Assembly: GCA_021799535.1 (NCBI GenBank)
Contig: JAJZAH010000005.1
Location: forward strand, 1 to 64,000
From: Nanobdellota archaeon
GTDB lineage: Archaea > Nanobdellota > Nanobdellia > Pacearchaeales > GW2011-AR1
Reading direction: 5' to 3'
DNA length: 64,000 nucleotides
Part shown: piece after piece, positions 4,544-10,043 of the stretch
How positions within the stretch are numbered: position 1 is the first letter of the stretch
Layout: each line of letters opens with the position of its first letter
The notes under the pieces: model-generated
What the model saw: only the letters and a program-made list of their open reading frames with translations
What the model was told of the DNA's origin: nothing
The model's database searches: none
Program-made: the position numbers and the translations under genes

Positions 4544-4885
4544 TCAATATGCCAGAACAGGGCTTTTTTCTTTTATGTGGGGAACGAGTATTGTTGCTTT
4601 CTCTTCATTTATTCCATCTGAGACTGAGAATTTTATCGCTTCCATATTGCGGAAGTTTATTATGTCCGCCCTGATCTCTTTTATCTTGGATATCTCTATC
4701 ATCTTTGAAAGTATTTTCGATAAAACTTCTGTGACATTTATTATTTGCATAGCGACAAGGTTTCCCTTGAGATCGAAGTCAAGCACGAAATTCCCCATTT
4801 CGACAGCTCCTGCTGATTTTTTCCCTTCAAGATATACGAAGAGGTCATCGTTCTCGGAATCATAATCAAACTTGAACTTTTCCAT
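4544..4885 (-). CDS. DUF2283 family protein
   Basis: FDYDSENDDLFVYLEGKKSAGAVEMGNFVLDFDLKGNLVAMQIINVTEVL pattern. Confidence 0.75.
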   Translation of the reverse strand: MEKFKFDYDSENDDLFVYLEGKKSAGAVEMGNFVLDFDLKGNLVAMQIINVTEVLSKILSKMIEISKIKEIRADIINFRNMEAIKFSVSDGINEEKATILVPHIKEKSPVLAY

Positions 4886-4886
4886 T

Positions 4887-5198
4887 TTATCCTATTGCTT
4901 TTTGCCAGTCCCTGTTTATCTTAATTATCGTTACTATAATAACTTTTCCATCAACAGTCAGGGCATATCTGTGATAGAGGTGCCTTGAATAAGCAAAATA
5001 GCAGTCGTATTTCTCTTCGTTCCTAAACTTCGCATCCTGTTCCTTGGCATAAACCAGCTTTTCGGGATTCATGATATTCCTTCTGACTTCTTCAAGGTCA
5101 ACATCTCTTGAGAACGCTTGAATCTCAGCGTGGGGTGCGAAGATTATCTCTTCTTTTTTGTAATTTCTTAATTTCTCCTTTAACTCATTTAATTCCAC
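4887..5198 (-). CDS. DUF4258-like protein (putative RelE/BrnT-superfamily toxin)
   Basis: FAPHAEIQAFSRDVDLEEVRRNI...YHRYALTVDGKVIIVTIIKINRDWQ; stop is immediately upstream of the DUF2283 ORF. Confidence 0.6.
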   Translation of the reverse strand: MELNELKEKLRNYKKEEIIFAPHAEIQAFSRDVDLEEVRRNIMNPEKLVYAKEQDAKFRNEEKYDCYFAYSRHLYHRYALTVDGKVIIVTIIKINRDWQKAIG

Positions 5199-5332
5199 AG
5201 GTCTCTTTGTATTGCAAACTTTTTAAGTTTTAATGAAAAGAAAAATCATCCATTGACCTGTAGATCAATGGGGACATGTTATAACTATGACCCCCTAAAT
5301 CTAAAAGCCTTTCTGTAGGGGCCTTTATGCTC

Positions 5333-5713
5333 TCACAGTCTGACCAGATCAGAAATCTCTTTTCTTGATTCTGCATTCCTGAGGCTGGTAAATTCCTCAT
5401 CAGGGTCTTTTATGTTCCACCTGTAGGCCTGAAATACCATCTTGCCTATGTCTTGGACTCTTTCCTTGTCTAGGGAGCTTCCTATCTCGAATATGTCTTT
5501 TGTGTATCTGCAAAAAGGACTGTAACCCACTGCTTTCGAGAGCTCTGCGACAGTGAAGGTGACTTCATTGTCAAGCTCCCCTTCCATCTCCGCAAGGAAG
5601 TGCCTGTCGGACGATCTGTATATTGAGAAGAACTTTCTTGCGTAATTTGTCCTTTCTGAGAATCTCCTCGCGGCAGAATGAATCTTTTCTCCCATGTCCT
5701 GCTCTTCATTCAT
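5333..5713 (-). CDS. Hypothetical protein (126 aa)
   Basis: Intact ORF; the overlapping 75 aa ORF is a shadow. Confidence 0.5.
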   Translation of the reverse strand: MNEEQDMGEKIHSAARRFSERTNYARKFFSIYRSSDRHFLAEMEGELDNEVTFTVAELSKAVGYSPFCRYTKDIFEIGSSLDKERVQDIGKMVFQAYRWNIKDPDEEFTSLRNAESRKEISDLVRL

Positions 5714-5804
5714 GATATTTTGTAAGGGTGGGAGGTTATAAGGGTTGCGGGGAGGGTTTTGGATTATAGAAATTGTTAAAAAGTTCTATTATATGTGTTT
5801 TTTT

Positions 5805-7664
5805 ATGGAAAGCATAGATGAGTTGAGTAAACTCATGGATGATGTTTCTTCTGTGATAGATCAAGAAAATGTCTTTTGCTATGGAATCTGTGATCTTTTG
5901 AAAGAATATAGAACGTTCTATATACCTGACTTTCAAAGATTTTATATCTGGGGGGAGAAAAATATACTTGAATTTTACAAAGATATAAACTCTTCAAAGG
6001 ATAAGAGAACCGAACTATTTTTGGGGAATTCGATTTTTAGTTTTAAGGGAAAAGATGTTGAAGTGATAGATGGTCAGCAGAGATTAATCACATTTTTAAT
6101 TCTTTTAAGATGTATTATGAGAAATAAAAAAGCTAATCACTCGGATGTAGACTATTTTAAGGGAATACTCGAAAATATAACCTTAGGAGGAGGATTTAAA
6201 ATAAAGCTGTTGAATCCCACTCTTAAGTTTTTTGATGAATATATTTTGCATGATAGGATGGAAGAATCTGAATTTGATCCATCATTAACTAAAATCGATC
6301 CTGTGAAAAGGATAATTATGTGCAGAAACAATTTTGACAAAAATATCCAAAAGCTTGGAAGTGTTGAGATAAACCAATTATCTAATTTTGTTAGAAAATT
6401 TATAAAAATTGTTGCCATCTTTCCAAAGATTCTTGGAAATCAAATATACGATTCAATTAATTCTAAGGGGGTTCCCTTAACGGATGCAGATAAAATAAAA
6501 AATTTCCTTTTTCAAATTGTAGAAGAAAGTAAAGAAGAGGAATTATATAAAAACTGGTACGATCTTCTAAAGATTTTTAATTATTCCTCAAAAGAAGTTT
6601 CGCATTTCCTTAAGTTATACTGGACAACTACAAAAGAAGATCCAAAAAATACTTTATATCATAAAGTTATAGAATTTTTTGAACAAAATGCAGATGGTAA
6701 ACGGGAAGATCCATTAGAATTTTCAAGAGAATTGTTAGGCTACGCAAAGATTTATTTTGAGCTTACTAAAAGTGAGTTAGATCTTAATTTTTGGGGCGGG
6801 AAAAAATATGGCTTAAAAATAATTGAAGTGCTTAAAAATTTAAAATATTTAGATATGCAAAACTCTTACTTTATCATTTTGGAAATAAGATCTTCATTCA
6901 AAGATTATTTTGAAAATGATGCTCCCGGGAAGTTCTTTGAGTCAATTGTAGATTTTTTTAAAGATGTGGAATCATACTCTTTTTTGCACGTAAAGCTTTT
7001 TGATAAATACCCTCAAGAAATAAAAGATTTATACTCTAATTTCTCGATCCAGCTTAAAAAGAGTGTTAAAAGAAAGAAAGAGGTTTTTAGTAAGATTAGG
7101 TCAGAACTTAAAGAAAGGATACTTAAAAATTTAGAAAAGAACAACTTTGAGGATAGGATTGTTTCCAAGTGTCGCCCTCCAATTTTCTTTACAAGGCAGG
7201 AGAAGATCTACTTATTATATAGGATTTTTTTAGACCTAACAAAAACAGGGTTACATCATCTAGATATCAATTCGATTAGTGAGAATTCAATTGAGCATAT
7301 AATGCCAAGATCTATAAGGAATTGGAAAAAGGATATAGAAAATTATGTCAATGACTGGGAAGAATATCCTTCAAAGGAAAAAGATGAAAGAGTTAAAAAG
7401 TATCATGAAACTTTTTTAGAAGATTTGGGTAATCAATCAATTTTAACACAAGCTACAAATAGTGAGTTAAACGATCTTTCTTTCTCTGATAAACTAAAAA
7501 TATTAAGTGAAAAAGAAGCGGACAATAGGCTTTTTGAGGGAATTATAAGATCTCCTGAATGGTCCAATAAGGAAATAGCTCTAAGAAGAAACAGTTTTAT
7601 TGAACGTCTACGTCTGATCTTTTCTCCCTCACCAATGAAAAATTTAAAAGTGGATGAATCTTAG
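5805..7664 (+). CDS. DUF262–DUF1524 (GmrSD/SspE-like) single-chain nuclease
   Basis: N-term YIPDFQRFYIWG...VEVIDGQQRLITFLILLR (DUF262 Q-R-Y-W and DGQQR motifs); C-term NSIEHIMPRSIRNW...LGNQSILTQATNSELNDLSFSDK (DUF1524 His-Me finger); likely start MESIDELSK at 5805 rather than 5745. Confidence 0.85.
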   Translation: MESIDELSKLMDDVSSVIDQENVFCYGICDLLKEYRTFYIPDFQRFYIWGEKNILEFYKDINSSKDKRTELFLGNSIFSFKGKDVEVIDGQQRLITFLILLRCIMRNKKANHSDVDYFKGILENITLGGGFKIKLLNPTLKFFDEYILHDRMEESEFDPSLTKIDPVKRIIMCRNNFDKNIQKLGSVEINQLSNFVRKFIKIVAIFPKILGNQIYDSINSKGVPLTDADKIKNFLFQIVEESKEEELYKNWYDLLKIFNYSSKEVSHFLKLYWTTTKEDPKNTLYHKVIEFFEQNADGKREDPLEFSRELLGYAKIYFELTKSELDLNFWGGKKYGLKIIEVLKNLKYLDMQNSYFIILEIRSSFKDYFENDAPGKFFESIVDFFKDVESYSFLHVKLFDKYPQEIKDLYSNFSIQLKKSVKRKKEVFSKIRSELKERILKNLEKNNFEDRIVSKCRPPIFFTRQEKIYLLYRIFLDLTKTGLHHLDINSISENSIEHIMPRSIRNWKKDIENYVNDWEEYPSKEKDERVKKYHETFLEDLGNQSILTQATNSELNDLSFSDKLKILSEKEADNRLFEGIIRSPEWSNKEIALRRNSFIERLRLIFSPSPMKNLKVDES

Positions 7665-7675
7665 AAGATAAAGAG

Positions 7676-8509
7676 ATGATAATCCCAACATTCTTAAAGT
7701 GGGTAGGGGGAAAGAGAAAGATTCTTGACAAACTTAATCGAAATCTGCCTATACAATTTAATAATTATTATGAACCATTTCTCGGTGGAGGAAGTGTTTT
7801 TTTTTATATGAAGCAGAAGTTTCCAAATAAGAAATTCGCAATTTCGGATATTAATAAAGATTTAATTAATACTTACCAAGATGTTCGTGATTATCCAAGA
7901 GAATTGAGAAAATGGCTTAAGAAACTGAAAGAGAGTAATTCAGAGAGATTTTATTATGAAGTTCGGGAATCATTCAATAAGGGAAAAGTCAAGGGTGTAA
8001 AGAGAAGTGCAGTTTTTATTTATATGAATAAAGTTTGCTTTAATGGAATTTACAGGGTAAACTCAAAAAATGAATTTAATGTCCCTTATGGAAATTATAA
8101 AAATCCGGAAATTTTTGATGATGAGACAATTTTATTGGCAAGTAAATTATTGAAAGGTGTAAAGATTGTATGTCAAGATTATGAGGATCTAATAAGCTCA
8201 ATTAAAGAAGACGACTTTGTTTATTTAGATCCTTGTTATGACCCTCTTAAGAAAACTAGCTTTGCAAATTATACTCCAGATAGGTTTGATAATGAAGAGA
8301 ACATTAGGATGTCTCGTTTTGTTAAAAATATCAAAATAAAAGGTGCAAATGTTTTATTTAGTAATAATTTCACAGAAAATGTAAGGAGGTTATATCCTAA
8401 AAGTGAAGGGTTCTTTTGGTTTAAATTTGAATCTTTCAGAAGTGTCGGATCGAAAGGAAAATATCGTGAGATGACCCCAGAATTATTAATCAGAAATTAC
8501 AAAATTTAA
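7676..8509 (+). CDS. dam: D12-class N6-adenine DNA methyltransferase (Dam family) with DPCY motif IV
   Basis: FLKWVGGKRKIL, YYEPFLGGGSVFFY, ISDINKDLINTY, DDFVYLDPCYDPL; 11 nt between the upstream stop and this ORF. Confidence 0.9.
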   Translation: MIIPTFLKWVGGKRKILDKLNRNLPIQFNNYYEPFLGGGSVFFYMKQKFPNKKFAISDINKDLINTYQDVRDYPRELRKWLKKLKESNSERFYYEVRESFNKGKVKGVKRSAVFIYMNKVCFNGIYRVNSKNEFNVPYGNYKNPEIFDDETILLASKLLKGVKIVCQDYEDLISSIKEDDFVYLDPCYDPLKKTSFANYTPDRFDNEENIRMSRFVKNIKIKGANVLFSNNFTENVRRLYPKSEGFFWFKFESFRSVGSKGKYREMTPELLIRNYKI

Positions 8510-8546
8510 TATTATTTCTTCCCTATTTCATACCCCCGAATCTCAC

Positions 8547-10043
8547 TCACTTCTTCCCTTTTTCGTCATCTGATACAGGTTTCATCAAAGGGAACGCGAC
8601 ACATTCCCTTATCGGACGATTCATCAAAAATGCGAACAATCTTTCCGAGACTCCAAAGCCGCACGCCGGAGGCATCCCGTATTTCAGGGCTTCTACAAAA
8701 CTCACGTCGTGCTCCATCGCTTCGCTGTCACCCTTTTCACCCAGTTTTCTTTGTTCTATGAATCTCTCTTCCTGATCCATTGGGTCATTGAGCTCCGAAT
8801 ATCCGTTCCCGACTTCGCTTCCCGCGAGTATCACCTGGAACTGCTCGACTTTTCTCGAGTCCTTAGGATTTCTTTTAGCAAGAGGTGCTAGTTCAACGGG
8901 CTGTCCTGTCAAAAATCCGGGACCAGAGAGTTGTTTCCTGCAATATTTCCAGAGAGCGTCGACTAGTCTCCATTTCTCGACTTTTGGATCGAACTCAACC
9001 TTGAGATCGTTAAGTTTTTTTATTATCTTCTCTCTCTCTGCTCCATAAATTTCTATCCCAGTCTTCTCTTTTATGAGGCTTTCAAAATCATAGTTCACCC
9101 ATTTTTTCGATAAGTCTATCTTGTGTCCCGCCCTCTCGAACTTGAGAGTTCCAAGGACTGCTTTCGCGACTTCCTTGTACATATCCTCGACAAGCTTCAT
9201 TCCGTCTTCGTAATTGGCGTATCCCCAGTAGAATTCCATCTGCGTGTAATCCTGGAGGTGTTCAGCGTCCATGCCTTCGTTCCTGAACTGCCTTCCTATC
9301 TCGAAAGTTTTCTCGTAACCTGCGACAAGAAGTTTCTTCTGCCAAAGCTCCCCCATCGATATCCTCAGGTAGACATTCATATCAAGCGCGTTGTGGTGAG
9401 TCGCAAAAGGAGTCGCTGCCGCTCCGCCGGCGGAGTTCTCAAGTACGGGAGTCTCAACTTCAAGGAAACCTTTTTTGGAGAGAAAGTTCCTTATAGCCTG
9501 CCAGAACAATTGCTTTTTCACAAAAATCTCCTTCACATCTTCATTCATTATCATATCAAGATATCTTTTTCTCAGGCGTTCATCTTCATCTTTAAGACCC
9601 TTGTGCTTGTCAGGAAGAGGGAGTATGGATTTTGTCAGGATGTAAAACTCTTTCACAAGTATGGAAATCTCCCCTGTCTTTGTTTTCATGGGGTTTCCCT
9701 TCGATCCAACGATGTCTCCCGCGTCAGTTTTCTTGAAAAGTTCAAGGGCTTCTTTTGGAGTCTCATCTTTCTGGAAAACTAGTTGTATCGTCCCATGAAG
9801 GTCCTGCAAAGTCGCAAAAGATATCTTGCCGAAATCCCTCATGGTCATGACTCTTCCGGCGACGATCTCTGATGATTTCGATTTCTCTTCGGATTTGAGT
9901 TTGGAATATTTCTCTTTTATCTCCCGCGACCAGTCTCTTTTCTCGTGCAGCGGGAACCTATCCGGGTAAGGGTTCATGCCTGAATTCCTCAGATCAGTGA
10001 CTTTCTTTATCCTTTCCTCTATTATCTGTTCTTCACGTCCCAT
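8547..10043 (-). CDS. lysS: Lysyl-tRNA synthetase, class II
   Basis: Full-length class II LysRS: KRYLDMI, FLSKKGFLEVETPVL, LRISMGELWQKKLLVAGYEKTFEIGRQFRNEGMD, PACGFGVSERLFAF. Confidence 0.95.
   Translation of the reverse strand: MGREEQIIEERIKKVTDLRNSGMNPYPDRFPLHEKRDWSREIKEKYSKLKSEEKSKSSEIVAGRVMTMRDFGKISFATLQDLHGTIQLVFQKDETPKEALELFKKTDAGDIVGSKGNPMKTKTGEISILVKEFYILTKSILPLPDKHKGLKDEDERLRKRYLDMIMNEDVKEIFVKKQLFWQAIRNFLSKKGFLEVETPVLENSAGGAAATPFATHHNALDMNVYLRISMGELWQKKLLVAGYEKTFEIGRQFRNEGMDAEHLQDYTQMEFYWGYANYEDGMKLVEDMYKEVAKAVLGTLKFERAGHKIDLSKKWVNYDFESLIKEKTGIEIYGAEREKIIKKLNDLKVEFDPKVEKWRLVDALWKYCRKQLSGPGFLTGQPVELAPLAKRNPKDSRKVEQFQVILAGSEVGNGYSELNDPMDQEERFIEQRKLGEKGDSEAMEHDVSFVEALKYGMPPACGFGVSERLFAFLMNRPIRECVAFPLMKPVSDDEKGKK

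Follow-up and report, generated by a model that had tools for sequence, protein, structure and literature searches.

A two-gene unit consisting of a DUF262-DUF1524 nuclease gene and a predicted adenine methylase gene was identified in a contig of a Nanobdellota archaeon (JAJZAH010000005.1, assembly GCA_021799535.1), the genome of which is about 87% complete. The whole stretch of DNA that was analysed, 64,000 nucleotides in length, is referred to as the window. The unit and its surroundings contain the following features.

4544-5198, minus strand: small two-gene pair (weak DUF4258-like and DUF2283), host genes on the other side of the insert
5333-5713, minus strand: open reading frame of unassigned function, 126 aa, in the insert and outside the operon, between the insert edge and the operon
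5805-7664, plus strand: DUF262-DUF1524 (GmrSD/DndI/SspE-type) NTPase-HNH nuclease, 619 aa, motifs intact
5922-5951, plus strand: IPDFQRFYIW, residues 40-49 of the nuclease, with Phe43 at the place of the phosphorothioate-sensing Tyr25 of DndI (PTYQR) in the alignment with 9jfl
6069-6083, plus strand: DGQQR NTPase motif, residues 89-93, invariant in alignments A1, A5 and A6
7293-7460, plus strand: HNH catalytic residues E497-H498...N543...N552, invariant or near-invariant in alignments A1 and A6
7676-8509, plus strand: D12-class (Dam/DpnM-like) N6-adenine DNA methylase, predicted, 277 aa
8222-8278, plus strand: motif IV block YLDPCYDPLKKTSFANYTP of the methylase, with the clade-defining DPCY replacing DPPY
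8547-10043, minus strand: lysS (NF001756, 7.4e-162), host gene flanking the insert on one side

The nuclease frame is intact, with an ATG at 5805 and a stop codon ending at 7664, and an extra in-frame TTG is present upstream at 5745. The methylase gene follows after a gap of 11 nt, and the two plus-strand genes are enclosed by minus-strand neighbours (5333-5713 and lysS). Both the coordinates and the domains agree with the preliminary description, in which a DUF262/DUF1524 gene was said to be followed 11 nt on by a D12 methylase gene between minus-strand genes. The 126-aa open reading frame gave no Pfam or PADLOC match. The GC content of 5805-8509 is 0.295 (29.5%), compared with a mean of 0.393 (sd 0.025, z -3.9) for 577 equally long segments sampled from some 196 kb of this genome; not one of them (0/577) was as GC-poor. 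The GC3 values of the two genes (0.27 and 0.25) are depressed relative to the mean of 0.40 for 107 other genes. Sampled stretches of the same genome served as the composition background in place of whole-genome codon statistics, and on this background the earlier claim that the island is AT-richer than its surroundings was borne out.

The two-gene unit was horizontally acquired at a variable site. In a genome of the same genus (G010), lysS directly abuts two small genes equivalent to the pair at 4544-5198, which represents the empty site, and it is from this arrangement that acquisition of the unit follows. Relative to G010, the window contains about 3.3 kb of extra DNA (5199-8546) that holds the 126-aa minus-strand open reading frame and the two-gene unit. 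LysS is 80-92% identical in most genomes of the genus, and its 3' neighbours differ. A different DNA methylase gene occupies the lysS 3' position in G002 (LysS 92% identical), and the contents of the position are different again in G003. The variation among G010, G002 and G003 identifies the lysS 3' flank as a variable site in the genus and the unit as an insert. An N6_N4 methylase gene or a DUF4238 gene was detected at the lysS 3' flank in other genomes of the genus (L238:3305-4012; L239:3059-3922).

The nuclease contains PF03235 (6.5e-26) followed by PF07510 (3.6e-8), the domain order of the GmrSD superfamily, with scores of 92.1 and 33.8 bits against curated cut-offs of 33.2 and 23, respectively. 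The residues characteristic of this superfamily (DGQQR at 89-93, E497, H498, N543 and N552) are present and are conserved with DndI; EHIMP corresponds to residues 497-501 and N552 aligns with N541 of DndI. The P0001 sequence alone gave no match in the PDB, and a profile of 20 relatives of the nuclease was used instead. This profile matched DndI (9jfl) over its full length (5e-72), SspE in pieces (1.5e-32) and BrxU weakly (6e-4), with 20yv, a functionally unnamed DUF262 protein of 818 aa, ranking between DndI and SspE. The predicted model of the nuclease (mean pLDDT 82.8, pTM 0.79) has DndI as its best fold match (E 2.8e-13, TM about 0.53, about 17% identity in the structural alignment), followed by SspE and BrxU; the overall rmsd is large (8.5 Å), which leaves the modelled domain arrangement tentative. 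As judged from the profile and the predicted fold, the closest solved relative of the nuclease is DndI, ahead of SspE and BrxU. The modification-sensing enzymes DndI and SspE are both closer to it than is BrxU, a type IV enzyme, in support of the DNA-modification link suggested in the preliminary description.

DndI belongs to the IscS-DndBCDE-DndI system of Salmonella enterica Cerro 87 (PDB 9JFL). DndI has ATPase and nickase activity and is harmful to cells that lack phosphorothioate (PT); upon ATP hydrolysis it lets go of PT-marked self DNA, with Tyr25 acting as the PT sensor (PMC11662687). The window nuclease is similar to DndI in its DUF262-DUF1524 order, its length class and its DGQQR and HNH residues, and both have a DNA-modifying partner; however, the partner in the window is a one-gene adenine methylase rather than PT machinery. 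The PT-sensing Tyr25 of the PxYQR motif is absent. In the sequences and the alignment with 9jfl, this position is Phe43 in the window nuclease and Asn30 in that of a second DUF262-DUF1524 and D12 pair, which was detected in Nanoarchaeota archaeon CSMAG_2067 (G451). Since Tyr25 is replaced in both proteins, no known reader of N6-methyladenine (m6A) is identified in them, and this counts against the restriction-modification-like reading preferred below. DndC and SspD are members of the PAPS-reductase family. No gene of the PAPS_reduct family was detected in the 87% complete genome (14/14 control genomes were positive), and the lack of such a DndC/SspD-type gene makes PT an unlikely cue for the window nuclease. 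By the same search the pair has neither dndBCDE nor sspABCD company, and no ssp genes adjoin it.

SspE shares this architecture and needs PT for its action (PMC11662687). It is similar to the window protein as a modification-sensing nickase with DUF262-DUF1524, DGQQR and HNH, but differs in being about 770 aa long, PT-activated and partnered by SspABCD. By analogy with SspE, m6A on self DNA might stimulate the NTPase and switch the nuclease on, in which case the nuclease would be silent without the methylase. Although SspE comes directly after DndI among the characterised relatives with a solved structure, such licensing is considered quite unlikely, as DndI is nearer in both sequence and fold and the longer SspE is matched by the profile only in pieces.

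The methylase matches PF02086 (3e-55) and TIGR00571 dam (4.6e-73; 246 bits against a cut-off of 114.85). Its nearest PDB entries are DpnM (2dpm, 7.9e-56) and E. coli Dam (2g1p, 9e-38), both of which are GATC enzymes, and by this relationship its target site is probably GATC. The kinship to DpnM is shared with DpnII-type (GATC) restriction-modification systems, the difference being that in the window the restriction role would fall to the NTPase-HNH protein; a DpnII nuclease was not found in the genome. Several other D12 loci of the phylum look DpnII-like, and another N6_N4-type methylase gene is located elsewhere in the genome (G000:C1:122435). Avoidance of GATC was considered as a sign of a GATC-specific system and rejected: GATC occurs in the window at 0.64 of expected, but depletion is equal or stronger in same-genus genomes in which no D12 relative was found. 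Every genome of the genus that was sampled (the window and L249-L268) shows depletion of the site (0.27-0.66 of expected), and depletion on this genus-wide scale gives no support for a GATC-specific system.

The methylase belongs to a clade in which motif IV reads DPCY. The block YLDPCYDPLKKTSFANYTP is identical in the first three aligned members and DPCYDP is present in 8/8 members, whereas the other D12 loci examined carry DPPY with few exceptions. The eight DPCY methylases are monophyletic (bootstrap/SH-aLRT 100/99), with a support of 100 in a wider tree of 66 rows that included seven members. The replacement of DPPY makes methylase activity less than certain, and the catalytic competence of DPCY is assumed here. 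A search of viral contigs with the methylase alone gave no match; an alignment-based search of viral contigs yielded ten D12 relatives, and the five that were examined contain DPPY and have no ParB-fold neighbour. The DPCY motif, the rarity of the pair and the small reduced genome would be in keeping with a degenerate or passenger island, in which the two defence genes arrived jointly and at most one of them is active. Very little probability is attached to this explanation, since both frames are intact, all expected motif regions are present, and DPCY is common to all clade members across archaea and bacteria, as expected under selection.

A ParB/Srx-fold gene, with DGQQR, DGQHR or DGERR, is located within two genes of the methylase in 8/8 members of the DPCY clade. 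A ParB/Srx-fold motif was found in a neighbour at 7 of the 77 other D12 loci, with doubtful ones and five related Clostridia loci counted in (Fisher p 1.3e-7 for 8/8 vs 7/77, a value that ignores relatedness). ParB-fold proteins bind ATP, GTP or CTP and are frequently fused to methylase domains (PMC12704722). The clade hosts include archaea and bacteria, and the partners are distributed as follows.

Window and G451 (two genomes of the same family): DUF262-DUF1524 protein, upstream of the methylase
G068/L140, L141 (Kaiserbacteria), L142 (unplaced bacterium) and G852/L372: membrane protein, DndB/DpdB-like DGQHR protein and methylase, in that order
G142/L064 and L144: ParB gene beside a gene of unassigned function

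Sister methylases may have unlike partners, as in G451 (DUF262) and G068 (DndB-like) with a support of 95/90, and in L144 (ParB) and L372 (DndB-like) with a support of 100/100; the best tree requires at least four partner changes. Because well-supported sisters differ in partner, the methylase is what stays the same in these loci and its ParB/Srx-fold partner is what changes. In the best tree the two DUF262-linked methylases are not sisters, although not significantly so (AU p 0.20); for the window and G451 nucleases, the DUF262 tree was too divergent either to establish or to reject sisterhood (AU p 0.67). Conservation thus concerns the methylase clade together with a ParB/Srx-fold partner of some kind, DUF262-DUF1524 being one of the versions.

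The partner slot lacks an HNH domain (DndB/DGQHR or ParB) at 6/8 clade loci, and DndB has been described as an ATP-dependent regulator (PMC12704722, PMC10853773). The slot might accordingly hold a protein that regulates the methylase in a nucleotide-driven way, much as PT modification is repressed by DndB, with the HNH domain a later addition that made the unit addictive. This regulatory pairing is a distinctly improbable reading, as both DUF262 versions (window and G451) retain intact HNH residues in DUF1524 and nothing shows control of the methylase.

The genes encoding the membrane protein, the DGQHR protein and the DPCY methylase are separated by gaps of 48 nt or less, or overlap (L140:4343-6825, L141:4311-6825, L142:4383-6810 and L372:3522-5960), and this three-gene unit looks like an undescribed modification-linked system. 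The membrane and DGQHR pair has also been detected beside unrelated D12 methylases on bacterial plasmids of Acinetobacter (L377:1088-4077) and Roseateles (L378:1557-4107), in one case together with a BglII-type nuclease, as well as next to dnd genes in Aliivibrio (L381:2330-4233). The pair is a mobile accessory of several DNA-modification systems, and since it adjoins both D12 methylases and dnd genes, ParB/Srx-fold proteins are common to m6A and PT systems. The DPCY methylase clade is tentatively proposed, at somewhat less than an even chance, to be the fixed core of an undescribed m6A-based defence family in DPANN archaea and in bacteria including Kaiserbacteria. The exchangeable component of this family would always be a ParB/Srx-fold NTPase, either DndI-like (DUF262-HNH), DndB/DpdB-like (DGQHR, accompanied by a membrane protein) or ParB (accompanied by an unassigned protein), and reader modules of PT systems would read or regulate m6A.

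The preliminary description had proposed a linkage of the nuclease and methylase genes. This linkage is well supported, and the pair recurs in G451, where the methylase is 60% identical to that of the window, the nuclease 23% identical and the gap 79 nt; general conservation of the DUF262 and D12 adjacency was not borne out. PF03235 was detected in 43 of 371 genomes of the phylum, and a D12 neighbour was present in only one of the 43, the window's own genome; G451 lies outside this sample and came from genome-contig and order-level searches. No D12 neighbour was found among DUF262 relatives on viral contigs (0/80) or among inspected plasmid and phage relatives (0/10), and a genome-contig search with the window DUF262 protein gave no close relative. 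A DUF262 protein of G002 was rejected as a counterpart, being 26% identical over part of its length and encoded at a different place in a genome in which no D12 relative was found. The pair is thus known from two genomes, which are metagenome-derived or incomplete. A second D12-type methylase frame, partial, lies beyond the DUF262 gene of G451 and runs into the contig end (L206:11282-11617). No published report of a DUF262 and D12 pair was found among the open-licence papers searched, which is weak evidence of novelty and is in line with the earlier statement that no characterised DUF262 and Dam pair was known in DPANN archaea.

The best PADLOC match of the nuclease is HEC-06 (2.5e-41), a single-gene system reported to be antiviral (PMC12988326). 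HEC-06 and the GmrSD/BrxU type IV enzymes have the same domain order and motifs as the window nuclease; they differ in being single-gene or GmrS/GmrD systems without a methylase partner, and GmrSD and BrxU act on modified cytosines. The single-gene nature of HEC-06, the occurrence of most DUF262 relatives alone and the presence of the DUF262 version in only two genomes count against the restriction-modification-like reading. The first two would suit a GmrSD/HEC-06-type enzyme acting alone against foreign modified DNA, with the methylase a separate anti-restriction or orphan gene in the insert. This alternative seems unlikely: the similarity to BrxU is weak, and the 11-nt spacing, the G451 pair and the ParB-fold partners at 8/8 clade loci speak against chance company.

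The preferred reading, with a probability of roughly 0.5, is that the unit is a compact acquired restriction-modification-like defence with m6A as the self label, in which unmarked DNA is attacked by a DndI-like NTP-dependent nickase or nuclease. The D12 methylase would place m6A on host DNA, probably at GATC, and the DUF262-DUF1524 protein would nick or cut DNA without the mark. The mark may be read through the ParB/Srx-fold DUF262 domain and would alter the NTPase cycle, with release of self DNA, as PT does for DndI; m6A would protect rather than activate, and the role of the unit would be antiviral. Counted in favour of this reading, by analogy, is PD-lambda-5, which is described as a compact RM+Abi-like system and has validated antiphage activity against several phages in E. 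coli (Vassallo et al. 2022, PMC9519451). PD-lambda-5 is similar to the window unit in having two genes, which encode a ParB-fold protein (A, the models of which match a ParB-like DGNRR protein) and a D12 methylase (B), respectively. The window methylase differs in belonging to another D12 clade and matches PD-Lambda-5_B weakly (1.4e-8), and the nuclease gave no match to PD-Lambda-5_A. A clear PD-lambda-5 system was identified in a Parvarchaeota-labelled genome (L145:2433-4570; A 2e-113, B 7e-121), about 1.3 kb from another D12 methylase.

The arrangement suggests that a plain methyl mark can replace the sulfur mark as the 'self' label for a DndI-like nuclease. To our knowledge, phosphorothioate DNA is the only partner with which DndI and SspE have been associated. 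Should a DndI-like nuclease prove to work with an adenine methylase, the ParB/Srx-fold reader would not be tied to sulfur chemistry and could be rewired to other marks, and one methylase gene, in place of the multi-gene PT machinery, would suffice for studying how such enzymes discriminate self from non-self. DPANN archaea, for which an under-representation of restriction-modification and CRISPR systems has been reported (PMC12988326), would moreover gain a compact type of defence. With one methylase clade that swaps only its ParB/Srx-fold partners, DPCYDPLKKTSFANYTP provides a sequence handle for finding more members.

Other D12 neighbourhoods contain different companions. In Clostridia (L150:448-3629, also L151, L152, L153 and L157), the D12 methylase is from another clade, and the gene after it encodes a protein of about 760 aa that has DndB as its central domain (PF14072, 6e-17) and an N-terminus with a weak match to Hjc. 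At L156:5992-10131, the gene order is D12 methylase, DUF87/HerA-type protein, and a protein of 442 aa judged NurA-like by eye (no Pfam match). At L083:5539-8157, a D12 methylase adjoins an AIPR (abortive-infection) protein (PF10592, 3.7e-43).
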